This document shows positions 18,301 through 64,000 of a stretch of 64,000 nucleotides of DNA, piece after piece. Origin of the DNA: Beroe forskalii (lineage: Eukaryota; Ctenophora; Nuda; Beroida; Beroidae); NCBI GenBank assembly GCA_011033025.1, contig WFMF01000107.1, forward strand, positions 248,001-312,000. The letters run 5' to 3'. Position numbers and translations under genes: made by a program. How positions within the stretch are numbered: position 1 is the first letter of the stretch; every line of letters begins with the position of its first letter. The notes beneath the pieces were generated by a model, which saw only the letters and a list, made by a program, of their open reading frames with translations, was not told the DNA's origin and did not search any database.

Positions 18301-21300
18301 TCACCCTCTACTGCGAAAAAAGTGAATCCGTAGTTCTCAGCGACCCACTGACAAGATTCAATGACATCATTCTTGTTAAAGTATCTCTTAATTCCTCCGC
18401 TTATTGCTCTATCACTATCGTCTTTCCAACAGCCGTGATGTTTTCTAGTACACCCACCTGAGATTTAAACCATAGTAACGATACTTACCATAGTTACCAT
18501 AGTAACCATAGTGATTATAGAAATATTATGCAACTTCTAAGGAGGTTTACGCAGTGCTCCTTTATACCCATTATGCACGCTAAAACAGTTACACTTTTGA
18601 AAAAGTGGAACTACAGTGCCAAAAAAGTGGAACTACAGTTGATAATGAAACCATTTTGGCATTGCTCCCCAGTGTTCTTCAAAACGTGACCTTACTATAG
18701 CAGGGAGAGGTGTTAAAAATGAACACTGGGGTGACAGACCGCAGATTTCACACTGAAGGATTCAGTAGCTGCTCTTATTACAATAGCTCAAATACTAGAC
18801 AAGCCGATAACACTACATATTCCCATAAAATTCTTGCTTGAATTACACATAATTACGAAATATATACCTACAAGACGTATTGTCGTTGCATAATTCGGTT
18901 TTGTAACTCGCAAAAACTGCAAACCTTCCATTAAAACCTCGGCCTTCGGCCTCGGTCTTAATGTGTTATTATGCCCTCGCGCTTCGCGCTCGGTGCATAA
19001 TATCGCGGTTTGCAATTTTTGCTAGTTACAAAACCTCTCATAGTACCACTTCCGTGCAAATTACTCCTATGCAGATAGGAGTATAACAACCATAGTAACG
19101 CACTAACGCCGACTTCCCCAAAAGGACCACTAGAGGACCACTGCAGGGCCAATATAGGGGACCATTACAGGACCACTAGAGGACCACATTGAGAATCACT
19201 AGAGGACCACTTTAGGGACCAGAGGACCACTAGGACAAACTTAGGACGAACAACTTATGAATAACTCTTTAGCACAATTTGGAAGTCTAGACGCAATTTT
19301 GATATAACTGATTGGAACTGATATATAATTGATTTCATGTTTCGACGACGTTTTAAAGGTGTTTGGTCATGAATAATTCACTTTCCTTAATTATGATCTA
19401 GTACATAGAAATATATGCATTACTATTTTGTTAGTATAACAGTGAAATTCCGGTGTTTCTAGCATGTCTGTGTCACTTGATATCCGGGATTATATAAAGT
19501 AGCGCGTGACGTAATCAAGGTAAGTGATACGACCGCAACACCCCTGCAGCAGCCCGTATCCTGTGTAATGTATAAGCAAAATATCACTATTGTGTGTTTG
19601 GGTGCTTGTTTCGTTTTACCGTATCTGACTTAAATAACGTTTAATTTTGAGAATTAAACTGCAAGTTTTATTCATGGGAGATAGTTCTTTTCTAAAGTTT
19701 GAATATTGTAGGTACGGATGCAAGTAAAACTTTGAAAAAAGGTCTGTTTTAAGGGCATTATCTGTGTCGGCTATTTTTGGAGGATTTTCGTATCTGCCAC
19801 AGTTATCAGTGATCACAAAGTGATCAGTAATCAATCCTTGGAATAAAAGTGTCATCTCTACCTTCCTATAACTCCTTACCCTGACCCCTAAAGGCCTAAC
19901 TTTGGCAAAACGGCTTAATTCCAACGAGCTGTATGGTTTAATCTTTCACTGGTCACCCAGACAGATCGGAAATCACTCTTGGAGTTAGACCAGTTAATGA
20001 TAAATCTGATGGTCTTCTCTGATCACTTGTTAACATTTCACTGGTCAGCCATAAACCAGACTGATGAGAACACTCTCGACCAGTCCAACAATCACCATCT
20101 GAAGGCGCGCCCTGACACGGGACACTAATTCATTGACCAATCTGATGCCAGGTTACTGATCACTCATCACTCTAAAACCATGTCACTGGTTGCCCTGTCT
20201 CCAGTTCATTGCTCACCTTGACACCAATTCATTGATCATCCTGACACCAATTCACTGATCAATGATGAACCTGACACGAATTCTCTGATCAACCTGGCAC
20301 CAATTTACTGATTACCCTGAAACCAATTTATTGCTCACCCTGACACCAATTCACTGATCAGCATGACACCAATTCACTGATCACCCCGACACCAGTTCAC
20401 TGCGCACAGTGACACCAATTCATTACTCACCCTGACCCCAATTCACTCAATCTGCTTACGCTGACACCAATTCATTGATCACTGACACTCCAACATCAAT
20501 TCACTGATCACTCCGATACCTGATTACTGATCATACCGACAACAAATTAACTGACCACCCTGACAATGATTCGCTGTTCGCTCTGACACCAATTCGCTTA
20601 ACACTGATACCAGGATACTGATCGCTATGAAACCAGATAATTTAACACTTTGACACTAGTCGCCAATGAATCTACTTTTCATTGACGTATCTCTGGATAC
20701 CATTCTACCAAGAACCTTCAAACCAGGCAGCTGTACAGTGTACACTGTACAGTACGGGAACAGTTGCTTTACACTCAGTTTTTTTAATAAGAAACTGTCT
20801 ATAAGAAACTTAGCCTAGGATTTCCGAAAATTTAAGAAACTTAGCCTAGAATTTCGGAAAAATTAAGAAACTTAAACGATTTACAATTAAGAAATTAAGA
20901 AACTTCTAGCCTAGAATTTTGAAATTTGTGTATAAAATCCTATTGCAACTGAAATTCTTTTAACGTCTGGCGCCCCCAGACCCCCACTTTTTGATTGTGA
21001 ACATTTCGAAACTAGGTAATCAAGTACTTCCATTGGACTTTTATTACCAAGCACAAAACAGAAATTTAGAAATTGTTGTTGAGACAGGACACTATTAGAG
21101 TTCCATATTCTATTTCCAAAAGTTCCAAGCATTAAGCTCGGCTAGGTAAATCTTTATTTTTATAGGATTTAGATATTATCTAAATTTTAAAATTCGCGAA
21201 CTTTTTTGGAAGAACATTTGATGAAGATCCCTGAACATTGTATACAGTTGCACAAATCTTTTAAGATAGGTAGTAGGTACATGCTTAAAAGTGTATAATT

Positions 21301-43179: not shown

Positions 43180-43729
43180 CGCTTGATTCAATAGCATCGG
43201 TGTGTGATGTTGCTACTCGATGAGTTGAAAGTTTCATTTGTGAGTTAGAGGTGCGGGAGTTACTGTATTTAATCTGATGCCAGTCAAGACTCAAGCATTT
43301 TCATATATATGACGGAAGGCTGCTATGAAATCTTATCGGATATTATTAAATTACAATTTTTTCGTTGAACGACGGTAGATTTTTTTATGAATGCATTTCA
43401 CGAGCTTCAAATTATGCTAAATATCATTATTTTGTTTATAAACTTATAAATTATTATTTTATTTGTTATATTGCATATTTTTTAAATATTCGCTTATTTA
43501 GTGGCTTCATTTTATTCGGACTCATTATTTATTGTTTTGAAGCTATAGAAGTATAGCTCAGGCTAAAATAACGTGTCGTAGTAGTAAGCAATTTGTTGAC
43601 TTTTCTATTTCGAAAACTTCAAATTATTATTAGTAAAATTGAACACAGATTTTCTTTGAGTTCTAATTATTAATTACACCTTTGTAATTCTAAACACCCC
43701 CCACTATTTGAGTTAGGAAGGCACGTGAC
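43180..43729. other. Spacer between MED8 and AGXT2
   Basis: About 0.55 kb, very AT-rich. A TTAG acceptor-like site just before the AGXT2 start codon (about 43716) could end a 5' UTR intron; this is inference. Confidence 0.45.
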
Positions 43730-45307
43730 ATGATATCCTCCAAGCTCCTCCCACGCCTGTCAAACTCCGCTACAGCTCAGATCGGAAGTGTTACTTCCCG
43801 TGCGGCCCTGGGCACCACCAACCCCCAGGAAACAGCAACCCCTGACCTCCCAGTCATGCCCCCATGCGACTACACCCCTCCCACCTACACTGGTCCTCCT
43901 AAAGAGGAAGTCCTGAGAGTGAGAAAACAGCTTGTCAACCCTGCCGTACACAGACAAACTTACTTCAAAGACCCACCTCTCTTCACCGCTGGAAAAGGAC
44001 AGTTTCTCTTCGATCACGAGGGTAGGCGGTATCTGGACATGTTTGGTGGGATATGTACGGTGGGAGCCGGACATAGCCACGATAAGATCAACTCTGCGGT
44101 GCAGGAGCAAATGTCCCAGCTAACCCACATCTCCAACTGCTTCGTGCACCCTAAGATCAGCGAGTATTCCCAGGAAATGGTAAAGAGGTTCCCAGCAGAT
44201 AGCGGACTGAGTGTCGTGTACTTCTGTAACAGTGGCTCGGAAGCCAATGATCTGGCCATGTTGATGGCAAGGGCTTACACGGGGTACCCTAACATCGTGG
44301 GGTTGAGAAGGGCATACCACGGGGCAGGGGTGGGTACCCTGCCTCTAACCAGCATACCCGCATACCGGCATGCCACCCAACCCATCACTAACATCACCCA
44401 TGTCATGTCCCCTGATGTGTACAGGGGTTTCTGGGGTGGAAGTCACTGTAGGGATGGTCTGGCTCAGACTCTGAAGTCCTGTGACTGTGAGGCTGGGGTG
44501 TGTGAGGCTAGTCAGAACTACGTACAGGAGTACCGGGACCATCTCCACAATCTCTGTCCTGCTGGGAAGGGTCTAGCTGCTTTCATTGGGGAGGGTCTGG
44601 GAGGCGTGTCAGCAGGGATACAGCCTCCCATAGGGTACTACAAGGAGGTCTTTGAGATCACCAAGTCCTACGGAGGTCTGAACATCATGGACGAGGTTCA
44701 GTCTGGTTTCGGGAGGCTGGGCATCCACTTCTGGGGCTTTGAGTACCACGGAGTTACCCCTGACATTGTGACAGCAGCTAAAAGCATCGGTAATGGCCAT
44801 CCTCTGGCAATGTGTATCACTCGTCCTGAGATAGCTGAGGCCTTCGCTAACAGCTCCTTCCACATCAACACCTTTGGAGGGAATGCGGTGGGATGCGCCA
44901 CGGGGCTGGCTACACTGAAAGCTATTGATGAGGATGGGCTGATGGAGAACAGTCATGTCGTGGGGACACATATTATGGAAGGGCTGTTACAACTCCAGCA
45001 AAAACACGAAGTTTTAGGAGACATCAGAGGGAAAGGACTCTTCATAGCCATCGAGTTTGTGGAGTCAAGGAGCACATTGAAACCCCTCCCTAACTACCAT
45101 CTCAATGCCATTGTGGAGAGGGTGAAGGACCTTGGTGTTATCATTGGCAAAGGTGGGGTCTATGCTAACTGTTGTAGGATTCAGCCTCCCATGTGTATTA
45201 CCAAGGAGGACGGGGACTTTACGTTAGCTGTGCTGGATAGGGCTCTGACTGAATATTCACAGGGACAGTTGAATGTGGAATCCTTCAATCCTAATCCGGC
45301 AAAATAG
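43730..45307 (+). CDS. AGXT2: Alanine-glyoxylate aminotransferase 2 (class III, PLP)
   Basis: A single open frame of 525 residues (human AGXT2 is 514). The N-terminus is rich in Arg, Ser and Ala without acids (MISSKLLPRLSNSATAQIGS), consistent with a mitochondrial presequence. Class III aminotransferase landmarks: YLDMFGGICTVGAGHSH, FCNSGSEANDLA (about 166-176), the PLP-contacting Asp in NIMDEVQSGFGR (D321) and the Schiff-base Lys in TAAKSIGNGHPLA (K351). Known AGXT2 transfers amino groups from alanine and related donors, such as beta-aminoisobutyrate and dimethylarginines, to glyoxylate or pyruvate. The Cys-rich insert (KSCDCEAGVCEAS) matches the AGXT2 branch. No intron interrupts it, unlike all neighbours, so a retrocopy origin is possible, but the frame is intact. 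GC content is higher than the flanks. Confidence 0.95.
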   Translation: MISSKLLPRLSNSATAQIGSVTSRAALGTTNPQETATPDLPVMPPCDYTPPTYTGPPKEEVLRVRKQLVNPAVHRQTYFKDPPLFTAGKGQFLFDHEGRRYLDMFGGICTVGAGHSHDKINSAVQEQMSQLTHISNCFVHPKISEYSQEMVKRFPADSGLSVVYFCNSGSEANDLAMLMARAYTGYPNIVGLRRAYHGAGVGTLPLTSIPAYRHATQPITNITHVMSPDVYRGFWGGSHCRDGLAQTLKSCDCEAGVCEASQNYVQEYRDHLHNLCPAGKGLAAFIGEGLGGVSAGIQPPIGYYKEVFEITKSYGGLNIMDEVQSGFGRLGIHFWGFEYHGVTPDIVTAAKSIGNGHPLAMCITRPEIAEAFANSSFHINTFGGNAVGCATGLATLKAIDEDGLMENSHVVGTHIMEGLLQLQQKHEVLGDIRGKGLFIAIEFVESRSTLKPLPNYHLNAIVERVKDLGVIIGKGGVYANCCRIQPPMCITKEDGDFTLAVLDRALTEYSQGQLNVESFNPNPAK

Positions 45308-46235: not shown

Positions 46236-49200
46236 ATGGATATGTTGGATGAAGCAGAGCAGACACTAAACGCTGGACGGGTTAAGGATGAGGAGGGGAA
46301 GTTTGCAGAAGCTTTCGCTCTCTACCAACATGGCCTGGAGAAACTCATGGACAAGTTAAAACGTGCGTTTAATCACACGTACTAAATAACTTTAATTAAT
46401 TTAGCTGCTTTTCTAAGTTTGATATTTCAGTGAAAATCTGGTAAAATATTCGTTTTGTCACTGATGACTGATATGACTGAAAGTGTTGAGTTGGTTTAAC
46501 ATAATTCGTTTAACTGCCCATTATTATTGGTTTAATGACCTCAGTGTATATTTTCAGAGCCCATGTCCTCGGAGAAGAAGGAATACTACAAGAACATCAT
46601 CACAGATTACATGGCCAGAGCTGAAGTCATCAAGAAGAAGAAAGACACCGGTGAGATATTTTCACAGTTTAGAACAAATCTTTCCAATTTCACAGTTTGA
46701 ATTCTATGACGATTTTTCTTTCCCTCTAAACCCCTTGTATGAAAGTATGAAGTTAAATACCTCACTTGTTCTGATGGAAATCTTTCACCTTAACCCCTCC
46801 CTCTCTTCCAGCCACAGAACCTCTGGTACAAGAGATAAGGATCCAGAACGAAGACACGGGTTGGACCTTCCGTAGGATCCTCGCTAAACCCATGGCAGAC
46901 TCGCCCACCCACATTAGGATACAGGACCCTTACCTTCATGCTAGACATCAGGTGACCGGGTTTGATGGGAATTGTATGCAGTTTAGAACATGATGGATAG
47001 CATCTAGTAAACCAATGGGACACCAACTTAGTGATCCTGCAACTCACACCACATTTTAAGATCAAAACGATCCATTTGATTTAGTTCCAACTCTTCCTTT
47101 GCCCCATTTCACACCTCTAACACTGTTTGAAGTTCGGGTGTTGTGTTAACTGTTGCAGGTGGTTAGTTAGCTAACTTGGTGGCCCTGTGTGAACTCTTCG
47201 CTACGCTCTCCTCTATCTCTCACATCAGAGTCATCACCAGAGCTGCACCCACCGTAAGACTTGCTTTTTTCTTCTTTTTTAAGTTTTTAGTTTGTTATAT
47301 TCAAATTCAAATTTAATCCTCAAATCACGATATAATTAGTTGTTCATGATTCAGTTTAGCTGATATCAAATTTTGTTCCTGAGACATACCACTTTCCAGA
47401 GTGAACAGAAATCGATGCAACAGAAGTGCATGCGAGACTTAGGGCAGAGTCTGTCTGAGAAGAACATAACCCTCGTAACAAACTACTCAGAAACCTTGCA
47501 TGACAGAGAGGTAACGCTTATCAAGTCTTAAAATCAGCAGATTGTTGATTCGATAATATCAAAATGGACATTCTTGCGAACACGGTAACTCGGTAATCTG
47601 CCGATGCACACCTGGGGCACAACCTGGGCACACCTGGGGCACATCTCGGGCACATTTCGGGCACACCTCGGGCACACTTCGGGCACAAGACACACCTGGG
47701 GCACATTTGAGTACAACCACCCGGGGCACACCTCGGGCACCCTGGGGCACACTTGGGCACATCTCGGACACAATTAATGCACAAACCATATCTGGGGCAC
47801 AACCAGCTGAGGGCACATCTCGGGCACATCTGGGGCACATATCGGGAAATGAAGCAACTGGCTCAAATTCCACGTGCCTTATTTCAATGTTATCAAGACG
47901 AAAATCCTGTGTAATATTTCTACAACGTTCACGTGCTCCACAATTCCCATCCCCCTTTATTTCATTATCGAATAAGTTAAAAAGATGATTGAATTCAAAT
48001 CTTCATTGCAATATCATTAAAAAATTGAAATAGTGCCGATACCATCTTCAGCATTTCTGTGTTCAACAAAATACAACTTTGCAGAAATTCGATAAACCCA
48101 TCGATGAAGATGCTTGTAATCCAAATGATGATTGATGAATCACTGATTCAGGCTACAGGTATACTAATCAATTAGTGTGTATTTGTTTTTCCAACTCACC
48201 GATTTTAAAATCTTATTCCTATGATACAGGAAAATATAGGTACCTTTCGGACTGATTTGCCCTGCTAAAGCAGGGCTCGGTTTGCAAAGCAGGGCAAAAA
48301 GAAGGGCAAAGCAGGGCACCCTGCGAAAGAAGGGCAAATTGGCAGCTATGACCATGATAGAGGACCATAATAAAGGACCAGGATAGAGGACCATGATAGA
48401 GGACCACGATGGAGTCCCATGATAGAGGAACACGATAGAGTCCCATGATAGAGGACCAGGATAGGGGATCAGGATAAAGGACCAGGAAAGAGTACCAACA
48501 TGCATTCCAAGTGATCAGATCGCTTGTCAGTGCATGCGAATGGCAGTAACCAAATAACAAGCTTTGAAACATACCCCTTGGAGTATAAAAGTTACAATCG
48601 CATGAGTTCCTCATTACCATCGTATACAGCTACTTCTACCTAAGTACCTACTACTCTACTTAACATGGTTCTTCGTTCTGGTACTCGACTCTCCCGCCGT
48701 GTTCCTCCCCACGGCGGGAGACAGCCCATTTCCTACGGAAATGGGCTGTCAATGAGGGAAGCTTTTGCAGCAAGCAAGATCACTCGCTCTAACTTCTACA
48801 ACCAACGCTTCCTGTTTGAACTGAACACTGTTGACAAGGAGGAGTATGCGAGAATCCTGAACGACAATCCAAAGGCATCTGTGAGAAAGCTCAACGTACT
48901 TAGCAGAGAGCGTCTTGGTCAATCACCCTGGAAAGAGATGTTCTGCTCCCTCCAAGAGAACGAGCAACTGCTTAGATCAACGATTTAGTTTGTTTATTTA
49001 TTATATTATGTTGTGTGATTGAGTAATTTCTAAACAGTTATGCTAAATCTTGAGCGCTGTCACTGAATATGACTATAATTCTCGAAATGTGCCCCAGGTG
49101 TGCCCGAGATGTGCCCCAGGTGTGCCCGAGATGTGCCCCAGGTGTGCCCGAGATGTGCCCGAAATGTGCCCTCAGCTGGTTGTGCCCCAGATATGGTTTG

Positions 49201-49642
49201 TGCATTAATTGTGTCCGAGATGTGCCCCAAGTGTGCCCCAGGGTGCCCGAGGTGTGCCCCAGGTGGTTGTACTCAAATGTGCCCCAGGTGTGTCTTGTGC
49301 CCGAAGTGTGCCCGAGGTGTGCCCGAGATGTGCCCCAGGTGTGCCCCAGGTTTGCCCAGGTTGTGCCCCAGGTGTGCATCGGCAGATTACCGAGTTACCG
49401 CGAACACCTATGAGAAATCTTCAATTAATCATACCCAATTTAATATTTACCTTTCAATGATTCACTGATCCCCTTATCTTCCCCAGATCCGGTTTAAGAA
49501 CGATAACAACGTTATCTGGGTTGTTATAATGGGCCGAGGCTTGGATATCTACAAGAAACTACCGAGTTGGTTCCATCTGGGAGCTACGGATTACCAGTAC
49601 AGGAAATGTCACGAAGTAACCATAACTCTGACTCGGGGATGA
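46236..49642 (+). CDS. MITD1: MITD1, ESCRT-III-binding MIT-domain protein
   Basis: Six exons: 46236-46362, 46558-46650, 46812-46951, 47167-47253, 47400-47510 and 49487-49642, totalling 714 nt (237 residues; human 249). The N-terminal MIT domain is three helices (FAEAFALYQHGLEKLMDKLK, then YMARAEVIKKKK). The C-terminal phospholipase D-like, membrane-binding domain reads IRIQDPYLHARHQLANLVAL, SETLHDREIRFKND, MGRGLDIYKKLPSW and YRKCHEVT, all close to MITD1. The family binds CHMP1/IST1 tails and stabilises the midbody in abscission. Exon 4 must use the TTAG acceptor at 47166; the CAG eight bases earlier leads to a stop. The last intron contains a complete 1.8-kb TIR element, yet the frame across it is intact. 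An exon upstream of the ATG is possible. Confidence 0.92.
48584..48590 (+). promoter_or_regulatory. TATA box for the element's internal ORF
   Basis: TATAAAA lies 75 bp before the ATG at 48665, in the same orientation, within an otherwise mixed-sequence leader. This spacing would place a start site about 30 bp downstream and leave a leader of about 45 nt. Confidence 0.5.
48665..48988 (+). CDS. Unrecognised 107-residue protein inside the TIR element
   Basis: The frame runs from ATG at 48665 to a stop at 48986-48988 and sits in the spacer between the inverted arms. It begins basic (MVLRSGTRLSRRVPPHGG). It then has a segment that could form a helix-turn-helix (LSMREAFAASKITRSNFYNQ) and a charged helical second half (DKEEYARILNDNPKASVRKL). 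I do not recognise the family. The codon content and upstream TATA box suggest a real gene carried by the element. Two perfect hairpins lie within its first 30 codons (48691-48750). It could be a DNA-binding accessory protein of the element; that is inference from the segment's look only. Confidence 0.5.
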   Translation: MVLRSGTRLSRRVPPHGGRQPISYGNGLSMREAFAASKITRSNFYNQRFLFELNTVDKEEYARILNDNPKASVRKLNVLSRERLGQSPWKEMFCSLQENEQLLRSTI

Positions 49643-52175: not shown

Positions 52176-52372
52176 TCATTCAAAGAATCCGTCGTTTTTA
52201 TGATCATGGTATTCATGAAACCTAGTTTTGTGAATTGCCAGGTTTGCCTTCCGAGTGAAGGATTTGTCACAGAAGGGGCACGGGTAAGCCACTTTGGAGT
52301 GCACGGATTTGATGTGTCTGCGAAGGGCTGAGGAGGCAGAGAAATCCTTGAAACAAAGGGGACAGACACGTT
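52176..52372 (-). CDS. Terminal exon J: two C2H2 fingers
   Basis: Acceptor TTTCAG at 52373, phase 1 entry (first two bases complete a split codon), stop at 52176. Finger 1: VCPLCFKDFSASSALRRHIK to H; finger 2: YPCPFCDKSFTRKANLAIHK to H. A short acidic tail DHKNDGFFE ends it. Both fingers have full Cys2His2 sets. It is the leftmost of the array, so last in transcription order. Likely one of several alternative 3' ends of a single gene; target DNA unknown. Confidence 0.75.
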
Positions 52373-52846
52373 CTGAAACATTTGGTAACTTCATCTTCTC
52401 TAAACGGTGCAAACTGCAAACACCATCTTGGTGCAATTAAGGGATCATAAGGTCATTTCGGTGCGACGAAAAATTTTACATTTTCATGACTCATAGTCGT
52501 GGCTGGCAGTTAATTTTTCGACGGACAACATTTTTGGAAATTTTCAGTCTCGTATGACTATGTGCAAATTTTCGGGGCCCTTCCTTTGGTTTTATAGAAG
52601 TCATTGTGAAATGGTAAATACATTGGTTTTCTTCCGGGTTCTTCAACTAAAAAGTATAAGTTTTAAGTACAGCTTAAATAACTTGTAGCTTGCGATAAAC
52701 ATAAATATTCTTAAACCAAATTAAATCGAAACAGATTGTACCCTCAAGAATTTAAATTAAATAAAGACTGATACAAATGGCATTCGATTTCAGACCAATT
52801 TTAGTCCTCGCATCTTTCATATACAAAGCAACTGAAAAACACAAAA

Positions 52847-53167
52847 TCAGTATCCACTTCGATCCCCTTTAACTGAGTCGGAAGCAGGAAAAGTATGTCC
52901 ATCCCCTCGAAGAGTGGTGCCATGCTTAGTCCCCACGTGATCTCTAAGGTGCTCGCGTCTCTGGAACGTTTTGGCGCAGATATCGCATGCGAAGGGGCGG
53001 AGTTTCAAGTGGACGGCCGCCACGTGGCGTCGCAGCTTGCTCTTGTTCTGGAAATCTCGAGCACAATACTCACACCGAGTTTCCTGGGCTGGGTGTTCCG
53101 TCTCAATGTGGGCCTTTCAGAGCAGCTGGAGAGGGGAAACCTCGCTTGAGACAGAGCTGACAGAACC
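52847..53167 (-). CDS. Terminal exon I: three C2H2 fingers, frame break in the first
   Basis: Acceptor ATGCAG, phase 1 entry. Finger 1 starts FCQLCLKRGFPSPAALK, but the next bases are one too many: the expected HIETEH lies in the next frame, so a stop would end the protein at about 53105. After a one-base shift at about 53110-53118 the rest is open: CEYCARDFQNKSKLRRHVAA, then CDICAKTFQRREHLRDHV, stop at 52847. The shift sits in a G/C run, so sequencing error is likely; otherwise this isoform exon is dead. Confidence 0.6.
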
Positions 53168-53966
53168 CTGCATGAGTATAGAGGAATATGGAGGGTGACA
53201 AAACTCTGAGGGTGACTTCAGTGCTATACAAATCAATAGAACAATGCTTCAACACAAAATGGTACAGTAGACTGGGCCCTATGGACTGTCACTGTCAGCA
53301 AAACCCTAATTTGAAACGTTCCAGAGCAGAGCCTAGAGGGCAATAATTTTGGGACTTTCGTATCATAACTTTAAAATTCCTCAAAATCAAACTTGGTCTT
53401 GAAAGCCGCCAGCACACAAGGCTAAGCAGAAGTGCTAAAAATTCGAATGCCATTTGAGTCAGCTGTCATTATTTATTTGCTTAATATTTGGTAATAAATA
53501 TGAATAAAATTCTATAGCAAAATAAATAAACCCATACAATATTCTATTCGTTTTCTAAATGCCTGTTAAAATCTTTTTAAGTTCTTAACACCAAATAATC
53601 ACAGTTATTTCAACCCTCTCAGTCAACCGTCCCGATCAGTTCGGCATGAACAACGACACTTGGTCCAACAGTCCAGAAGTAAAACAGGTCAGCAACACGT
53701 CCAGTTTCTTGAATTTGGTCTCGCTTTCCACTGATCTTTGCTTCAAGGGACTAGCGCAGAAGTCTCTCCCTCAAGAGTGTTGATATTAAGATGAAGTTGA
53801 TGAGGTGATAGAGCAAGTTGGATGGTACCATGCTCAGGGTTCACACTTCACTACGTCTGGTCGAACTCCCGTACAACTTGCTCTGAGGTAAGAAAACTCA
53901 TGTTACTATGACTGGAATTTTACTGGCGACCGCAAACTAATAATAATGACAAAAGTGGAAACTGTG

Positions 53967-54262
53967 TCAATGATAAGATAAGTGATAAGTACACTCTGCA
54001 TTTCCAGATTCTACAAAGATAGAATACACCCCACCTAAGTCAGCTGGGTCGCTGGTGGTAGTCCTGTTCATCCTGTGCAGGACACACGAGAGTCCGTGGC
54101 TCTCCAGGGTGGTTTTCCGGGCAAAGGCCCGACCACAGAGCTCGCATTGGTACCTCTTGACCTTGAAGTGAGACTCCAGGATGTGTCGCTTTAGGTTCCG
54201 TTTCCTCTGACTGGCAACGATGGTGCGGGAAGAGAAGGGGCAGTGGGGACAACTATACTCGC
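53967..54262 (-). CDS. Terminal exon H: two C2H2 fingers
   Basis: Acceptor ACATCAG, phase 1 entry. Finger 1 has an enlarged Cys-His spacing (CPHCPFSSRTIVASQRKRNL then KRHILESH), as in exons E and F. Finger 2 reads CELCGRAFARKTTLESH with an irregular last His. The frame stays open past the fingers to a stop at 53967, unless a further intron shortens it. Confidence 0.65.
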
Positions 54263-54851
54263 CTGATGTGGGGAGGGTGGGGTTGGGCGATCAACTGGGG
54301 TAGGGGTTGAATCTGTGTGAAGGAGAGGGCCCAGATACTTATAATCTTTCAATTTACAAAGATATTTCATGAGGGCATTTAAAAAAGAACTCTGAGGGCA
54401 ATTATCGGAAATGATTATGAACAAAAAGAACAGAAGGCATTAATGGAAGGAAAAACCGAAAGTTTCCGTACATTTTTCGGACTTGAAATTGACCATTAAA
54501 AGAAAGGATTGCTCCTTACACTGAAGCCACCCTGTTTATCATAGAAACAGAAACATCAAATATCAAGAAATAGACTTGAAAACTAACCAGAAACCATATT
54601 GGTTTAAAGCTACCTTAAAGTAAGCACATCTATATAACTCCACATCTAAAACATAAAATAATGCATCCACGGCCAATCGCCACATAAAAAGCCATGTTTA
54701 AGCGGCCGATATTATAACATTTTCAACACTAAAACATAAACACAAATAAATAACAGTCTAAACACAAATACATAAAGCTAATTAACACAAACAGATCTAA
54801 TAGTCCTCTGAACTTCCAAACCAAACCCTCGGATCCTGCTCAAGATAATTA

Positions 54852-55069
54852 TCAGGAGTCAGGGTTCTCCTTCTTTGACTTAAAAAGACACTTCCTGTAG
54901 TGCCTGCTCCTCTGGTTGGAGTAAAGGAAGCCCTCCTTGCACCTCTCACAGAAATACTTGTGGATCTTGAGGTGGACTGCCTGGTAGTGGCTCTTGTAGT
55001 GGTGGATCCGGCAGGAGCCCCAGAACAACCGTCCACACGCGTTACAGATCACGGGGTTGGGCGGGTAAT
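54852..55069 (-). CDS. Terminal exon G: two C2H2-type fingers
   Basis: Acceptor CTTTCAG, phase 1 entry, stop at 54852. Finger 1: CNACGRLFWGSCRIHHYKSH to H. Finger 2: CERCKEGFLYSNQRSRHYRK to C, so the last ligand is Cys (C2HC). The tail is Lys/Ser-rich. Confidence 0.7.
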
Positions 55070-55273
55070 CTGAAAGGAGGGAGTTCATTGGGTGGTCCTA
55101 GGTCACGTGATGGGTTTAGAAGGGTTGAAAATCCAACAGAATACCCAAGTTTTCATGATCAAAAACCTTTAATGATTCATCGATGAAAATAAATCACAAA
55201 ATCATTTCAAACTGAAAAACTCAAACCAAAAACAAAGCTATAAACCTACTACTTAAACATAAAACAAATCTGA

Positions 55274-55611
55274 TTACACTTTATTATCAGGAAATGTCCA
55301 GGTAGTATGATCGGGATGAAACCTCGCCACATGTTTCGTCAGCTTCTCCTTCCTCACCAAACACTTGCCACAGTATTGACACTGGTACGGTTTACACCTG
55401 AAGTGTACTTCCTCCACATGACGGGTTGTTTTACCCAGCTGAGAGAAGAGTTTACCGCATATCCCGCACCGCATGTCTGACGTCACGTGATGGAGCAGGA
55501 TGTGACGACGGAGAGAGCGTTTGGTGGTGAGAGGGGAGGAGGCAGGAGGGGGCAGAGAGACGCAGTAGGGGCAGGGGGTGGAGGGGATGTAGGGATTCCG
55601 GAGGTAGCTAC
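55274..55611 (-). CDS. Terminal exon F: three C2H2 fingers
   Basis: Acceptor CACCTCAG, phase 1 entry, stop at 55274. Finger 1 has a Pro-rich long loop (CPYCVSLPPPASSPLTTKRS then LRRHILLHH). Finger 2: MRCGICGKLFSQLGKTTRHV. Finger 3: YQCQYCGKCLVRKEKLTKHV. The stop codon overlaps an AATAAA (…GATAATAAAGTGTAA), a compact polyadenylation signal. The acceptor and first half-finger are tandemly duplicated upstream (55612-55865). Confidence 0.75.
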
Positions 55612-55865
55612 CTGAGGTGGGTTTGGTGGTGAGAGGGGAGGAGGGGGCAGAGAGGGGCAGTAGGGACAGGGAGTGGACGGGATGTAGGGATTCCGGAGGT
55701 AGCTACCTGAGGTGGGGTTTGGTGGTGAGAGGGGAGGAGGCGGGAGGGGGCAGGGAGGCGCAGTAGGGACAGGGGGTGGAGGGGATGTAGGGATTCCGGA
55801 GGTAGCTACCTGAGGTGGGGTTTGGTGGTGAGAGGGGCGGAGGCGGGAGGGGGCAGAGAGACGCC
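55500..55865. repeat. 95-103 bp tandem repeat of the exon F acceptor and half-finger
   Basis: About 3.5 copies. Each begins with acceptor CACCTCAG then GTAGCTACCTCCGGAATCC and encodes the CPYC half of a finger. Unit lengths (95 and 103 bp) are not multiples of three, so upstream acceptors would shift the frame. Confidence 0.9.
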
Positions 55866-56301
55866 TATTCCAGATGCAAGACGAGACTGCAAAAATTAGT
55901 ATGTAGGAGGGGAAGCCAAAATGGTAAATTTACAGTTCAATTTGTGCTAAGTTTGCTTTGGTTGGGCTCAGAATTGGTCAAACGAAGAATTATTGGTTTT
56001 ACTAATAAATATTCATTATTCATACACTAAACCAGAAAAAATAAACCAAAAAGTGCTCCCGTCCGTAAGTGGACTTAAAAGCAACTTAAGAAACAAATTC
56101 GTCATCATAAAGAGTCGGGAAAATGTCTGATTCAATGAATAACCAATATCCAGAGTCAATTTAGGTAACAACATGAACAATGTTTCAAATATCTTAAGTC
56201 AGGGAGAGGTTTGGCGGTCATCAATCTTCAATTATTCATCATTGGTATTGTTTGGCATTTTACATGGCATGCTTGGCATCCTACATGGCATGCTTGGCAT
56301 C

Positions 56302-56495
56302 CTACATGGCATGCTTGGCGGTGTGTCGGGCCCAGCTCTCCTTTCTCTTCAGCATCTTGCCGCACACCGAGCACTCGAACTGCTGACTCGCCAAGTGTAC
56401 CTCGTTAATGTGTCGCTGTAGATTCCGCTTAGCATCGCACAGCCGGGTTTTAAGCATTCCCGGCCGATAGGGGCAGTAGGGGCATCCGATGCGAG
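56302..56495 (-). CDS. Terminal exon E: two C2H2 fingers
   Basis: Acceptor CGTTTCAG, phase 1 entry, stop at 56302. Finger 1 has a long loop: CPYCPYRPGMLKTRLCDAKR then NLQRHINEVH. Finger 2: FECSVCGKMLKRKESWARHT to H. The stop lies in the first of three 20-bp repeats (CATGGCATGCTTGGCATCCT), so the last codons and the 3' UTR are repeat-derived. Confidence 0.75.
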
Positions 56496-57255
56496 CTGAA
56501 ACGAAAAGGAGGACTGCTGAGCAAAGGGGTGATTCATGGTAGCATGGGCAGTTAGGGGTTAATCTAAGGAGTGAAAGTGGTGCCTAGTGGTAATGTTGAT
56601 TTCCATGGGACAATTCCACAAAAGGCCTTCTTATGAAATCAATACGGGAGAGCTTTTAAAAATGTAAATACAAGATTTTAGAAATAACTTTAATCATAAT
56701 GATGCAAATACATTCAACTGAAAACTGTCCCAATACAGACTGAGCCCCAAAATATTGGCCATATTACTGTTACATTCAGAATATACCCATGGTTTCACGA
56801 TGCCATTATATAAAAACTCAAAACTTATTTAAATCTTAATAAAAAAAGAACTGATATTGATAATAATAATCAAAGCTTAAATTAGGGCTGAAATTCAAAG
56901 CCTCATAATAACTCCTATATAATAATGTATCAACTTGTTCCGCAATGATGAGCCTAGTCTACTAAATTTCAATCCATCAAATTAAAAACCCCACGTAGAA
57001 AGATTTCCAGGAGTAAAGAGTTAATCAAGCATCCGGTGATACGATCAAAGGCATGCTCCTATTAGAGGATATGTACAATCGCGATTACTACAATGATTGG
57101 TGGAAAGTTCCCATTCTCAAAAAATCCGGATCACGCCTGCCTAAGTTAGCAAGTAGGAACACTTTCTCTCACACCATCCATCCCAACCCTCTGAATCCCT
57201 TCCCGTCCTCTAATTTCCATCTATATCTCCTACCAGTCCCTCTGCCTCACGTCCT

Positions 57256-57494
57256 CTACTGTCCGTCTCCTACCAGTCCCTCTGTCTCCCCTTCTACCTC
57301 CCTGGTCACCAGCTCACTCTCCGGGTGTATCATCCGTACGTGTTTAGCCCTGATATCGCTCCGAGAGAAGGTCTTAGAGCAGGACGGACACACGTACTTC
57401 CGTTCCCTCAAGTGGACGGTTCGGATGTGCCGCTTTAGATCCCCCAGCCGTTTGATGAATCGCTTGCAGACCGGGCATTGCTGTCCTTCGGACT
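57256..57494 (-). CDS. Terminal exon D: two C2H2 fingers
   Basis: Acceptor AGTTTCAG, phase 1 entry, stop at 57256. Finger 1: QCPVCKRFIKRLGDLKRHIR to H; finger 2: YVCPSCSKTFSRSDIRAKHV to H. An acidic tail (ELVTREVEGETEGLVGDGQ) follows. Both metal sites are complete. Confidence 0.78.
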
Positions 57495-57998
57495 CTGAAA
57501 CTGTGGGAGCGCATGATGGGTAACAGGAGAGTGGACAGCAGGGCGGAGTAATTTCTATCAAATGCCCTCAATTTATATTTTATAACAATTCGTCGAGACA
57601 TGGAACATTGAATATGGCATCCTTAGCTAACGACGTATAAAATTCATAACATCATAATTTGTTGTTCTATTCGTATTGCAATTCGTCGAAAATTTCATGA
57701 AATTAATACTGCAGTTCAGACGGTTTCAGAAGATTAAGTTAGGGAAACATATATTAATCGAAAATTGTAAATTACGGAACTGATAATCCAACGAAAACTA
57801 ATATTCTTCAACTTATCTTCAACTTTAAAAAGCAACTCAAAAATTATCAAACTTCAGGAATCAGAATGGCAATTAACGAAATATTAGATAATAAAAAAAT
57901 TTTAAAAAAATACAATCCCGAAGTATGCGCTGATCGACCACATGCCACGGTCAAATGACATATTCAATCTAAAACCCAGTAGTCCAATATATCCCCCC

Positions 57999-58189
57999 TC
58001 AATGGATCTTCCAATGAGGTCCATGAACCGTCCGATGATGTCTCAGGAGATTTCCATGTCGATTGAACTTCTTGGAGCACGTCTTACACTCGTATATCCG
58101 GCCCTGATGGTGGATCTCCAGGGTGTGGGTCTTGAGGACATAGACACTCACGAAGCTCTTCCCACAGATCCCACACCTCCAAGTCCCTT
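57999..58189 (-). CDS. Terminal exon C: two C2H2 fingers
   Basis: Acceptor CACTCAG, phase 1 entry, stop at 57999. Finger 1: WRCGICGKSFVSVYVLKTHT to H; finger 2: YECKTCSKKFNRHGNLLRHH to H, ending GPHWKIH. There is no start codon within the exon, so it cannot stand alone as a gene. Confidence 0.78.
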
Positions 58190-58854
58190 CTGAGTGTGGG
58201 TCAAGGGATTACCTTAAATCATGTCAGACTTTATGGGTCACAGGGATATATTTGGAACGCTCAAGAAATTTTAAATATTACCCATATAAGCACAATGCTG
58301 TCTAAAAATGAGGGGTATTATCAGATGTATGAGGGACCAATTTCTACAGGAAATCGACGAAAACAAATAAAAATCGATGGATAATGATCGAATAGATAAT
58401 ATATGGTGTCTATATGTTTCTACAATACGCTGTTTGAAAATAATAATACTGCTCAGACTCGAAGTTCAAAAAATGTGAACTATTCAAAATAACAAAAGAT
58501 TTTATTAAATTGTTCATGTTCGGAACCATGGTAATCATAATAATATGGTCATAATAATATGGTTTCAAAGTAATAACTTATAAAAATGATTATTCAAAAT
58601 TTATTCAATATAACATATTAAACAATAAATCATATTAGAGCTATCAAGACATAGAATTTTATTTCACCATATAGTAGATCAAAACAAAAGAGATAAGAAT
58701 TGATAACTAATCACAATGTTCTTTATCTCAGAGGTTTCCAGAAGATAAAATTTCAGAATATAAATTATAGCTCACGACATTAACTTTTTTGATTTTATAA
58801 AAAGTAAAAAATATAGAAATAAAGTTTTCACGCTAAATCATGTCTTCAAATTTA

Positions 58855-59219
58855 TCATCGTATGTCCTTCGATGCCAAACAATTTCTCATGAATGCTTGA
58901 TTTGATAATGTTGACAATACTTCATTTGACACAACGGACCCGTGGAACCTTCGTTTGCCCGTTTTAACCAAGTTAGTTTCGTACCTCTTGTTAGCAAAAT
59001 ATTTCCTCAGCCGCTTCTTATCGCAGCCAATCTTCAGGGACAGCCATTGCAACTGTTCCTCATTGGGTTTCCCGTTACACTTCTCCCACATTAGATTTAG
59101 CTGAGCGAGCTGATCCTTGTCAAATTGCCGCCGTTTTGTGGCCTTCTTTCCGATTCCAAACGTGTCTCTGATCCCTTCTATCTCTCGACTGGAAAGCCCA
59201 AGACGTGCATTGCTCGTGT
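58855..59219 (-). CDS. Terminal exon B: homeodomain-like DNA-binding module
   Basis: Acceptor CTTCCAG, phase 1 entry, stop at 58855; about 120 residues. No zinc finger is present. A basic 60-residue three-helix segment starts KKATKRRQFDKDQLAQLNLM, continues with helix 2 (NEEQLQWLSLKIGC) and has a recognition-helix-like end DKKRLRKYFANKRYETN. Against the homeodomain signature WFxNxR it reads YFANKR: Trp48 to Tyr, Phe49 kept, Ala at 50, Asn51 kept, Lys52, Arg53 kept. It is therefore a divergent homeodomain. It sits between zinc-finger exons A and C and shares their entry phase. Confidence 0.65.
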
Positions 59220-59625
59220 CTGGAAGATAGGACAGTTCACTTGTGACTTATTTGAGTTCTACGCTACCTCTTAAAATTTGGAATCAATATTTGGGCCAAA
59301 ATCCTGAAAAGTCGGTCAAACAAAAATCAGAAGCCTTTTGAACGGGGGTGACTAGTAGTTTTTCACGAAATTATGGATGAAATTACCAAATTATGAACAG
59401 TGCTCCCAATCAAAAGAATGATAATCGCAATAAATAGATACGTTTAATGCTTGGTAAATAAAGAGCATATTGCATACAAAATTGTATGAAACTAGTATTC
59501 ATTACCTCTTAAATTACCACCAACTTTAAACCACAATCAGTAATACCGTTAAAAACTCGTATATTTTGAAATATTCGATATCAAAAATACCTAAACCGTC
59601 TTCATCAAGTAAATACAAAACAAAT

Positions 59626-59861
59626 CTATGAAAATTTAGAACCCTTGAACATTATATACTGGGCTTGGCCTTCCCGAAAATGATACGAAAGATGCCTCTC
59701 AAGCAAGTGCTCATTCGCAAAAGTAGCCCGGCAATATTGACAGTGATGTTCGACATTTTCGTAGGGATGAAGAGCCTTCATGTGTCTTTTGAGGTTGTTT
59801 CCTGCATTCCGGTTCCCTTTGAATACTCGGTGACATATGTGACACTGCAAATCTTGTGACT
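59626..59861 (-). CDS. Terminal exon A: two C2H2 fingers
   Basis: Acceptor CTTCTTCAG, phase 1 entry, stop at 59626. Finger 1: LQCHICHRVFKGNRNAGNNL then KRHMKALH; finger 2: HHCQYCRATFANEHLLERHL to H. Tail QAQYIMFKGSKFS. It is the first of the array in transcription order; shared upstream exons should lie to the right. Confidence 0.75.
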
Positions 59862-60612
59862 CTGAAGAAGGGAAATTCGATATGTACACGGTTTGAAATG
59901 GAAGTGATATATCCACATACCTTCAGCAAATAATGCCAATATTCGATATTTGCGATAGATTATAGTATGTACCGAATAAATGCAGGGCTTTGTAATTCAG
60001 ACATGCAGCTTTAAATGACAAAATACACAAAATTTAGCAAAACTAGGTACCATGGACTGGTCCCAAGTGTGACAGTTGATAGTATGTTTCATTAATTAAA
60101 TAGCGAATAGTGATTGATAATATGATTGTGAACGCCACAGGCTTCTTTAGTTTATCATCCTTCTTCAATTAATGAACAACTCGTGAATTCCTCGTTTATT
60201 CATATTTTCAACTCGGCCATCATTTCAATTTGGCCAAGCCGGAATGTAGCTGAAATTTAAACAATAGCCAGTACACTGTGCGCGCGGTCGAGTCGTCGCG
60301 CGCGCAATCACAATGCTGTTTGGACGTGCTTTTCATAAGAACACCTGAAAATTATGCTAGTACTTTTAGCAGATGTTGCAAATATGTCCCACAGATCGAT
60401 ATTTGAAATGAATGGTAGATCCGCAGATCTGAATGTTAAGCAGCTTTCCAACATTTTCAGAGAGCCTTTTTTCAACCCAAGAGGTTTCAAAATAACCAGA
60501 AAACATTGAATTAGGGCAAATATTCCTATGCCATATGAATCTTGGAGGCAGGCAGACAAAACGGTTATAGCACCCCTGAAAGCCCTGATTATGAATGAAA
60601 CTTTCCAGCTTG
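59862..60612. other. Intronic or intergenic DNA right of exon A
   Basis: No coding exon is recognised. A GC-rich inverted repeat (TGCGCGCGGTCGAG facing GTCGTCGCGCGCGCA) lies at about 60279-60306. If exons A-J belong to one gene, this is part of its large intron. Confidence 0.45.
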
Positions 60613-62551
60613 TGTAAACAATTAAGTTTAGCTCTAGAGTTGGCTCTGTTAATTGGGATGGAGGAATCAAACACAGGTTAATTAGCGAATCAATAACTCC
60701 AAGAGCGATGCTACACCAATTCCAAAGACCACCAAAAAGACACGTCAACTATCCTCACACACTCACTTCTCACTCTGCTAGTCAAAACATAGCCTTTATT
60801 CACAACACACCTCTCACGTTTCCCTGCACCTAAATGCACAATAATGTCTACAGTTCTAAACAAAAATGAATCAATTAGTCCCCTTTCTATAATTTTCAAA
60901 AGAAACCACAAGACTAATAATGAATATTGCACAACCTCGCATGTCCCACACTCATGTCTCACAAAATACGCATCGAATTTAAGATCAGAATCAAAATTAT
61001 AACTTTTCCATTAGGGAACACCACATAATCATGATTCATGATAATAGTGTTTTACTTTAAAATGATTGGTTGATTCAGCCTTCCAGCTCATTTCACGTTA
61101 AAGTCCATTCTATATATTTTAAAGTCCAGTCTCTACCAAGCCCCCTAGTCCCCTGAAGCCAGCCTGTGATCCCGAATATCAATCCTCCACTTGATCCATA
61201 GCAGCCTGCCATCAAAGCCCCATCTTCTGTTGAATCACTCATGTTCATTGTTCATATTCATAAGTATCTACATCATCTCACCATTGATCCATCCATTGAT
61301 CCAAATCTGTTGAATTACCATTGGGGTTGTCATCAGAATAAAGTTGATCACGTCAATGATATCCGTTACCATAACCGTCTTACTCTTAACATCTGTACCA
61401 TACTTTGCTGAGTCACTTCCTCTTCAAATACAACACGAACCCGGAGGAGTTTGATATTGGCCAGATATCTAACTTAATCCTCACTTCGGGCCCGATTAAG
61501 ATCCGTGTTGTTTCCATATTTTACTGACATACCGGTCAGTATCATTTTAAACATTTAAACTTTCCATTTCAGCAAATCCTTTTCTTCTGTAATCCAGTTT
61601 CAACCTTGATAATACTTCATTTACTGCATAGCTGAATAATAAACATGTGTTCCTTCACATGTTTCTGTCCATTTCATAATATAGTCAACATTTTGCCTCA
61701 AATGTTAACTCACTGGGTAACGGATTCATATCTCGCCTAACAAATTCTTATGAAATGTTAAGTCCTTTAGAAACACCTTCATTCAGGCAAATCAACCCCC
61801 TCTGAAACTCTACATACCCACACATTCTCTCAGATGACCACTCCTTTCTGCTGCTAGAGATAATTACTGGCATTATAAATTCTCCTATTCCTTCATCCCC
61901 TAATAGAAGTTCTCGAACCATAATGAAATCCTAGCTGATCCAACCAAGACGGCCACAAGTCCGTAATGTCCATATACACCAACACTCTCGGGTGATGGTT
62001 AAATTAGTAAATGTCCTATCCCCTTTGTACGGAAGATTGTGACTGTAGCTGTTCGTAGTCAGGTTGTGCAATCAGGTAGCCTTGATCACCACTTGTTGTT
62101 GCACATCATTTTCTCCACGGCCCCGGGGTTGTCTCTTTTCCGGTCACTCCAAAAGATCATCGCATGCTCCTTGCAGACTAGCAGGATGTAGACTGTAACG
62201 TAAGACCGTTGAGATTCGCTCCTCTGTGTTTTCACTGTCGTACGATCCTCCAAGTCCCAACCCTCGTTACACCCCGCGTAGGCCCGAGAGTTGCGCCATT
62301 TGTAAACAATTAAGTTTAGCTCGAGAGTTGGCTCTGTTGATTGGTATGGAGGAATCAAACACAGGTTAACTAGCGAATCAATAACTCCAAGAGCGATGTT
62401 ACACCAATTCCAAAAGACCACACCAAAAAACACGTCAACTATCCCTCACACACACACTCACTTCTCACTCTGCTAGTCAAAACATAGCCCTTTAAAACTC
62501 ACAACACACCTCTCACGTTTCCCTGCACCTAAACGCACAATAATGTCTACA
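60613..62551 (-). mobile_element. Non-coding LTR element (TRIM/LARD-like)
   Basis: Direct repeats of about 240-251 bp (60613-60852 and 62301-62551) begin TGTAAACAATTAAG and end AATGTCTACA on the plus strand, with the 4-bp duplication CTTG on each side (60609-60612, 62552-62555). Next to the right repeat, the minus strand reads TGGCGCAACTCTCGGG, which looks like a tRNA primer-binding site, so the element is oriented on the minus strand. The internal 1.4 kb has no gag or pol frame. Confidence 0.8.
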
Positions 62552-62555
62552 CTTG

Positions 62556-64000
62556 GAGTACATTTAGTTTTTCAGCGACACAAATTTTGAACTCCCGGAC
62601 AAGACTCCTAGTAAGGAAGTAAGAAATATGATGCCATGATGGGTTCTGGTTTAGTGTAGGGTTGAGTTAGAATTATGGTCCATGTTAGGGTTTTGGTTAG
62701 GGTCATGATTAAGGCTGAGTGTACAAAGGACCAGGGTAGGGCGCACGTAAGACTTCTTTACCGTTACCGCGCAATAATAGCTTTACTAATTTAAAAGTGG
62801 TTCTTGTCTGGATGGTGTTTACTGTACTGTCCTACCATCTCTTGGGTCCTCATCAGTCGAAAGCAACACATCGAAAAGGAAACAGGGAGAAGCAGTAGAA
62901 GTGTTGCACCGTGGCCAAGTTGCCGAAGTTTTTACTTTTGAGTTTGTTTTTACTTCAGGCAACACTGCAGACTATGAAAATACCATGAATATCTTTCGCT
63001 GGCTCTTTCCTCCGGTCATTCTTACCTCTTTTTCGACCTGTTGCTATCTACCGATGAGGAGGACACATACCAGTTTAAGGTGTTGATGGTTCGATCCAGT
63101 GATTCAATATACATAGAAATACAACTTACAGTAAATGTGGTGTTGAAAACTGCAACTTGGAGAAGATGAGTGAGAGGCTGAATGGTGATGGCAAACAAAT
63201 CAACAAGAGTGAAACGACAGAAAAAACAAAAGTTCAATATAATTTCATTTCCAGTGCAAAGATGAACATAATTTACATTTTGCATTAAACGCTACAAATG
63301 CTAATTTAAATCACTTTAAAAAGGAAAATAAGATAAATTAAGAGTTAACAGTTGGTTGAAAAATCATTTAAGCTAACAAAGATCATAAATTTCACTAAAA
63401 TTTGAGCTGTACCTAACCTAATGCAGAATTTTTAGAGTGGGAAACCAAGAATTTTTCAGGAGTGGTCAGTCAGGCCCAAATCATTTAATGAAATTCCCGC
63501 AAAAGCTAGTTCACGTCTCTCATAAATTGCCCAATGCCCAAATTTTTCGTCATGTGCACCACGAAAGATTTATTTATTTTTTCAAAGGCCGGTCAGAATG
63601 CAGTTATGGTTAAAATTAATAATGGAACAAGGGTGAAAACGGAGTGAAATGGGTATGTGTGGCAAATTTAGTAATTTAATCAATATTTCACTTTGCTTCT
63701 GAATTCTGATACTATTATGTATGGTTTCGTTGTACATTCTTTGTGGTTTCTCTCCAATAAGGCCAGTTTATTTTCTCTCCGTTTTCACACAACAAGGAAA
63801 CTATATGTGCAGGAATGTTTCCCCAAACGATGCTCACCTTAGTTACCCAGTAATAGGATCTGAATGAAAATGAGGTAGGATAATATGAAAACAGATGATA
63901 CAATTCTGATTTGAATTGTTGCGTAATTCCTAATCTCTCCGCTTCTCCAGGTCAAAAAGTGGGAAGACTGTTATTAAAATTGCAGGGAGCATCGTTTGGA
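62556..64000. other. Right end of window, no gene recognised
   Basis: No conserved exon is seen on either strand. A stretch at about 62670-62855 has TTAGGGTTTTGGTTAGGG and ends GTCCTACCATC, faintly recalling the introner-like elements at 50.7-51.2 kb. Shared 5' exons of the zinc-finger array were not found here. Confidence 0.4.

Follow-up and report, generated by a model that had tools for sequence, protein, structure and literature searches.

A ctenophore locus with ten candidate alternative terminal exons for DNA-binding modules

To our knowledge, insect BTB genes are the main known case in which DNA-binding ends are swapped on a common front, and there the swapping multiplies transcription factors. 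In Drosophila lola (longitudinals lacking), cis- and trans-splicing link a shared BTB part with unique C-terminal exons, mostly zinc-finger exons, as described in PMC1947980. The account of Drosophila mod(mdg4) in PMC12692577 gives common exons combined with alternative 3′ exons into over 30 isoforms, and TTK-type BTB domains are reported in PMC11426971 from arthropods only. Here, we describe a locus of the ctenophore Beroe forskalii that appears to be built in a comparable way. The window, the whole stretch of 64,000 nucleotides that we analyzed, is C77:248001-312000 of a 216-Mb assembly (C77 being contig WFMF01000107.1); positions past 64000 are continued window coordinates. It carries ten minus-strand exons (E1 to E10) from 59861 to 52176, and four shared exons (A to D) lie past its right edge. 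On the sequence evidence, we consider it highly probable that they form a single minus-strand gene for a ctenophore transcription factor, in which A-D would be spliced from one phase-1 donor to one of the ten terminal exons.

Ten terminal exons and their junction phase

Inspection by eye and by script found in all ten exons an AG acceptor, then two bases, then an open frame into one DNA-binding module. Each exon has its own stop, as the sequence-only reading of this stretch had claimed; the stop of E10, ending at 52176, is the last of the array and agrees with the limits given in that reading. The frame runs intact from acceptor to stop in nine of the ten exons and is interrupted in E9. That reading had also remarked on missing start codons in several exons, and no Met stands between acceptor and module in any of the ten. 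The array comprises nine zinc-finger exons and one homeodomain exon (E2), with only the spacing of Cys and His identifying E7 as a finger pair. Eight exons reached a C2H2-family Pfam cut-off, E8 exactly at the cut-off. A regular expression for C2H2 fingers, applied to 123 kb on both strands, gave the array as its sole cluster, and the five remaining matches were isolated ones dispersed over the sequence (12378, plus-strand 56312, 66052, 87169 and 115407). Judged by the two best matches listed, the modules are mutually 24 to 48% identical.

All ten exons enter by eye in phase 1, with two bases completing a codon begun upstream, which bears out the earlier claim of a common phase; with a probability of 1/3 per exon, all ten would fall in a given named phase with a chance of 1.7e-5. 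A phase-blind automatic acceptor picker assigned phase 1 to seven of the nine exons that it detected at this locus (E5 went undetected, and E6 and E9 were given other phases). At paralogous loci of the same genome, named by contig and described below, it assigned phase 1 to 9 of 10 exons at C188, to all seven assigned (of eight) at the minus-strand locus of C202, or C202(-), and to 10 of 12 assigned at other loci, including C158; this last count leaves out four already counted loci and one unassigned row. Phase 1 was thus given to 33 of 38 family exons. As a control, zinc-finger exons were taken from 20 places in the rest of the genome; 19 places gave 22 rows, of which 21 were assigned and 7 had phase 1. 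The Fisher p of 7e-5 is a guide only, since the control exons are often internal-looking, with a GEKP-type linker and some duplicates, and the array exons are related by descent.

These results bear on two other explanations. E1-E10 could be separate small genes whose acceptors take a trans-spliced leader, and ctenophore gene clusters seeming to share a short 5′ leader exon have been reported (in PMC8527503). However, leader acceptors need no common phase, the modules are not preceded by a Met, and the isoforms of a relative from Bolinopsis carry the A-D front end; we regard this explanation as very improbable. Alternatively, the array may have decayed, with a few live terminal exons among relics. 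The frameshift of E9 and the disturbance of E6 by a tandem repeat would fit such decay, whereas the nine intact frames and the diversity of the modules, some of which match paralogs or Bolinopsis (part of E9 with C188, E7 with isoform X8), point away from it, and we hold it to be quite unlikely.

Shared exons and their homologs in ctenophores

The sequence-only reading had seen no shared exon in the window and had predicted a phase-1 donor to the right of 59861. The prediction was borne out in the 59 kb that we read to the right of the window, where exons A-D lie on the same contig and strand. Exon A (66760-66607, minus strand, reaching C77:314760) has the start ATG and the phase-1 donor GTGAGT. 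Exon B (66409-66305, minus strand) has a phase-1 donor, and exon C (minus strand), whose start is uncertain, ends at 65357 with a phase-2 donor. Exon D (64704-64646, which is C77:312704-312646, minus strand) has the phase-1 donor CCA A|GTAAGT, which fits all ten terminal acceptors; the window portion of the intron from D to E1 is 59862..64000 on the minus strand. When C, D and E4 were joined and translated, one continuous frame ran through the junctions. Two candidates were rejected, namely an exon B′ between B and C (66249-66142) and a 142-base intron inside exon C, by the same comparison with Bolinopsis and C202(-), which run B straight into a GAMDVD/VMDVD-like start. B′ was still present in the queries of the common-part homolog search and of the Pfam scan, and the 142-base intron in that of the Pfam scan.

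The common part begins with an N-terminal motif, KQK-EFHF-QKSDNEFLMFLLDTAVRVISI-VQHLAPVIEAVS, which is divided between exons A and B in C77 and is nearly invariant among the eight sequences compared. It also has SAELEQINQEI, a second likely helix, and a long linker that is disordered and contains an IEIKEE motif. No family reached its cut-off in a Pfam scan of the common part, for which the query ran without the first stretch of exon C; that stretch was covered by the precomputed Pfam annotation of relatives. An AlphaFold2 model of the Bolinopsis X6 isoform with 10 relatives had a mean predicted local distance difference test score (pLDDT) of 48.6 and a predicted template modeling score of 0.20; its usable parts are the N-terminal helices and the fingers only. 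The helices span residues 15-27 and 35-64, with pLDDT blocks of 61 to 79 over residues 11 to 60 and lower beyond. The model also has a weak helix at 104-126 (blocks of 48 to 68), two fingers that are well formed and a linker predicted to be disordered. The N-terminal motif is probably helical, the two predicted helices are unlike BTB, and from conservation alone they may mediate protein contacts. A BTB domain in the common part was rejected on the basis of these helices, the absence of a Pfam family and the genome search, in which none of the 102 BTB matches listed lies on C77.

A search with the common part returned 25 proteins at an expect value (E) of up to 10 from 7,995 scored candidates. 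The six species-named homologs are all ctenophore: isoforms X15, X8, X5 and X6 of LOC134813369 from Bolinopsis microptera, LOC134821797 from Bolinopsis, and ACHWQZ_G001731 from Mnemiopsis leidyi. The four LOC134813369 isoforms matched at E of about 2e-76, with 47% identity over the full common part, and this locus is an ortholog or close paralog of the C77 gene. The homologs place the window in a ctenophore rather than an insect, and the level of identity suggests a species not closely related to Bolinopsis. Their residues 1-373 are identical and end in GQANP, after which four different tails follow; the tails among the four LOC134813369 protein clusters are all finger-type. In C77, an exon junction lies directly after GQANP and is compatible with a phase-1 base A, and the C188 paralog reads SSIKGQANPS. 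The tails start with M, T, I and S in the Bolinopsis isoforms, and those of two other proteins start with I and T; all these residues can be encoded with A as the first base, and A is what exon D leaves. The finger-type tails that these annotated isoforms swap at the homologous junction lend support to the earlier proposal that the ten exons may belong to a common gene. Residues 12-64 alone returned 11 proteins from 12 candidates, all among the common-part matches, and among species-named matches the N-terminal motif was seen only in ctenophores. Additionally, one matched protein (P0001) has 472 residues on a contig of 1,496 bases, as a spliced complementary DNA would, and another (P0023) combines the N-terminal motif, a SIX domain and a homeodomain in a single protein.

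Overall, we provide a putative mechanism for this gene. Transcription would begin upstream of exon A, the donor of exon D would pair with one of the ten acceptors, and cleavage past the chosen terminal exon would end the message. The resulting factors would all have the same front but would differ in their DNA-binding ends, which would direct them to different DNA sites. We infer that this species uses all ten terminal exons and that their modules bind DNA. With the junction phase fixed, local duplication could also add terminal exons and leave the gene unbroken.

Splicing would be mainly in cis, which suffices because E1-E10 are on the same strand as A-D and all downstream of them, within about 12.5 kb. 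The terminal exons may instead come from their own promoters and be joined in trans, either to A-D or even to the N-terminal exons that other family loci carry. The junction phase is indeed common to many loci, spliced-leader trans-splicing is described as widespread in ctenophores, with the leader on 56% of Hormiphora Iso-Seq reads (PMC8527503), and mod(mdg4) messenger RNAs are said to form exclusively by trans-splicing (PMC12692577). Nevertheless, nothing that we observed requires trans-splicing, and we consider joining in trans unlikely.

Several observations weigh against a single gene with ten working terminal exons. The B-to-C junction at C77:314125 reads TTTGACTG|GT GTG ATG GAC and lacks a canonical acceptor, with TG rather than AG; the homologous acceptor of C202(-) is TTTTCAG|CT GTT ATG GAC. 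Exon B ends in the ten bases ACTTTGACTG, which recur at the end of the B-C intron. The TG may stem from an error in the assembly, serve as a rare acceptor or have arisen recently. In E9, a frameshift in the first finger leads to TGA after 20 residues and leaves the later fingers in another frame; this may reflect an assembly error, a polymorphism or a dying exon. The poly(A) words AATAAA and ATTAAA are absent within 1,200 bases past E3 and E7, and the first poly(A)-signal word past E5 comes at 1,016 bases. At C158, the picker gave phase 1 in five of seven finger places and in one of two SIX-homeodomain exons, the latter standing outside the count of 33 in 38. Moreover, when the homeodomain tail was searched at full length, none of 131 candidates matched at E up to 10 and no homologous isoform turned up in other species, so these candidates give no support to conservation of the E2 tail outside this genome.

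Individual terminal exons and paralogous loci

The exons are given here in the order of transcription, all on the minus strand, the higher coordinate being the acceptor-side start and residues being counted to the stop. E1 (59626..59861, cccttcttcag|AG, 77 residues) encodes a C2H2 pair with a long first loop and scored 27.9 bits with zf-C2H2_4 (cut-off 27). The homeodomain of E2 (58855..59219, ctatcttccag|AC, 120 residues) matched Pfam Homeodomain at 5.7e-6 and 26.5 bits (cut-off 22.9), and its nearest solved chains are mostly homeodomains, with a best E of 0.041. C2H2 pairs matching zf-C2H2 are also encoded by E3 (57999..58189, ccacactcag|AA, 62 residues, 1.3e-8), by E4 (57256..57494, cacagtttcag|AG, 78 residues, 1.1e-9) and, with a long first loop and one finger matched, by E5 (56302..56495, ttcgtttcag|CT, 63 residues, 5.7e-6). 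The C2H2 fingers of E6 (55274..55611) matched zf-C2H2 at 7.6e-7 in a scan from 55645. A 103-bp tandem repeat of 3.4 copies (55519-55864) spans the acceptor and first codons of this exon; the acceptor is present in three copies, the others at 55706 and 55809, and the full frame is open from the last copy only.

E7 (54852..55069, ctcctttcag|AT, 71 residues) encodes a divergent finger pair, C2H2 and then C2HC-like by spacing, which gave no C2H2 match in the Pfam scan and is 43% identical over 58 residues to the tail of Bolinopsis isoform X8. The pair of E8 (53967..54262, ccccacatcag|GC, 97 residues), again C2H2 with a long first loop, has a zf-C2H2 score of 25.2 bits, which is exactly the cut-off. 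E9 (52847..53167) encodes C2H2 fingers with a one-base frameshift; its second part, the only part scanned, matched zf-C2H2 at 3.7e-7, and a part of E9 is 52% identical over 65 residues to a C188 module. E10 (52176..52372, aaatgtttcag|AA, 64 residues) encodes a C2H2 pair that matched zf-C2H2 at 6e-13.

The peptide of exons A and B gave 25 matches in the genome at E up to 1, and exon A was found at 13 places with E below 1e-8: C77, C846, C188, C202 (two), C247, C250, C423, C388, C158, C543, C165 and C326. The C846 copy contains TGA, and C423 and C388, which have similar scores, may be haplotype copies. At least three other loci have terminal-exon arrays of their own, some with homeodomains or SIX-homeodomains. 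Fingers were found downstream of several of the 13 places in a search that scored 150 of 1,296 candidates, so that its counts are minimum values. At C188 there are 10 terminal exons, with an eleventh row out of frame. C202(-) has eight, of which five encode fingers and three homeodomains. There, a tandem duplication at C202:345000-352400 covers two zinc-finger exons and one homeodomain exon, giving three copy pairs, and is 94.75% identical over its long aligned piece; it may have arisen recently or be an artifact of the assembly. Identity is 98-99% in its exons and 90-98% in its flanks, values that are uninformative on selection. At C158, seven fetched places with fingers are followed by two exons with a partial SIX domain and a homeodomain (C158:148100-150400), in which Tyr replaces Trp48. 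Both of these exons have a usable phase-1 acceptor and also acceptors in other phases. Homeodomain pieces at C165 resemble an ordinary multi-exon homeobox gene and were left uncounted as terminal exons.

Other features of the window lie away from this gene. Two similar minisatellites (47606-47801 and 49088-49377), apparently in opposite orientation, flank a 114-residue open frame at 48644-48988. An uninterrupted plus-strand frame of 531 residues at 43712-45307 resembles a class III aminotransferase, and we take a minus-strand frame of 705 residues at 3152-5269 to resemble a SCYL-type pseudokinase. Related minus-strand frames at 12211-18464 have a common GIESDDECFTSADAGSTY-like stretch and are apparently local duplicates.

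Comparison with known systems

We think it likely that ctenophores, independently of arthropods, have evolved a transcription-factor system specific to their phylum, in which a short N-terminal domain, multiplied into about a dozen loci, is joined by phase-1 alternative terminal splicing to dozens of C2H2, homeodomain and SIX-homeodomain modules, and that part of the expansion of "orphan" homeobox and SIX genes consists of such exons rather than separate genes. Among titles and abstract openings of the open-licence full-text literature in PubMed Central, a scope outside which subscription papers fall, we found no description of such ctenophore genes. If true, the ctenophore system would be a clear example of convergence, in which the front domain is unrelated and the modules exchanged include homeodomains. 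Transcription-factor counts would change as well, since a small number of loci may account, as exons, for some of the intronless homeodomains and finger pairs now catalogued as genes. Ctenophores have a central place in the discussion of how neurons arose.

Within ctenophores, LOC134813369 from Bolinopsis resembles the C77 gene in having the same junction after GQANP, and its products are annotated only as uncharacterized isoforms. From Mnemiopsis leidyi, Ryan et al. (2010, PMC2959044) list 18 intronless unclassified homeodomains together with MlSIX59a-e, which are without Trp48 and stand where gene predictions end. The SIX-homeodomain exons of C158, with Tyr for Trp48 and a place at the array end, resemble MlSIX59a-e as catalogued there; in that catalogue MlSIX59a-e are truncated at codon 57, unlike one of the two C158 exons. 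The string "splic" is absent from the main text of that paper. This comparison suggests that some of the MlSIX59 and unclassified Mnemiopsis homeodomains may be terminal exons of the family defined by the N-terminal motif.

The common part of mod(mdg4) has a BTB domain, and that of the C77 gene is non-BTB. The two share, as far as mod(mdg4) is described in the source cited above, common exons with alternative 3′ exons. In contrast to mod(mdg4), which relies on trans-splicing, nothing at C77 requires it. lola, in its cited description, is like the C77 gene in joining common N-terminal exons to one of many C-terminal exons, most of them with zinc fingers. The lola-like architecture proposed in the sequence-only reading would thus stand as regards common exons joined to alternative 3′ exons with their own stops; it does not extend to the common part, which in lola has a BTB domain and at C77 has a short motif instead. 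Moreover, the C77 gene differs from lola in that a homeodomain is also swapped, and its paralogs add further homeodomains and SIX-homeodomains. BTB genes of the lola, mod(mdg4) and fruitless type belong to the arthropod lineage, whereas the C77 gene and its six species-named homologs are from ctenophores. Because BTB is absent here and TTK-type BTB is reported only from arthropods, the C77 gene is not a member of the lola family. It is best read as belonging to a ctenophore transcription-factor family that would have come to a lola-like build through convergence.

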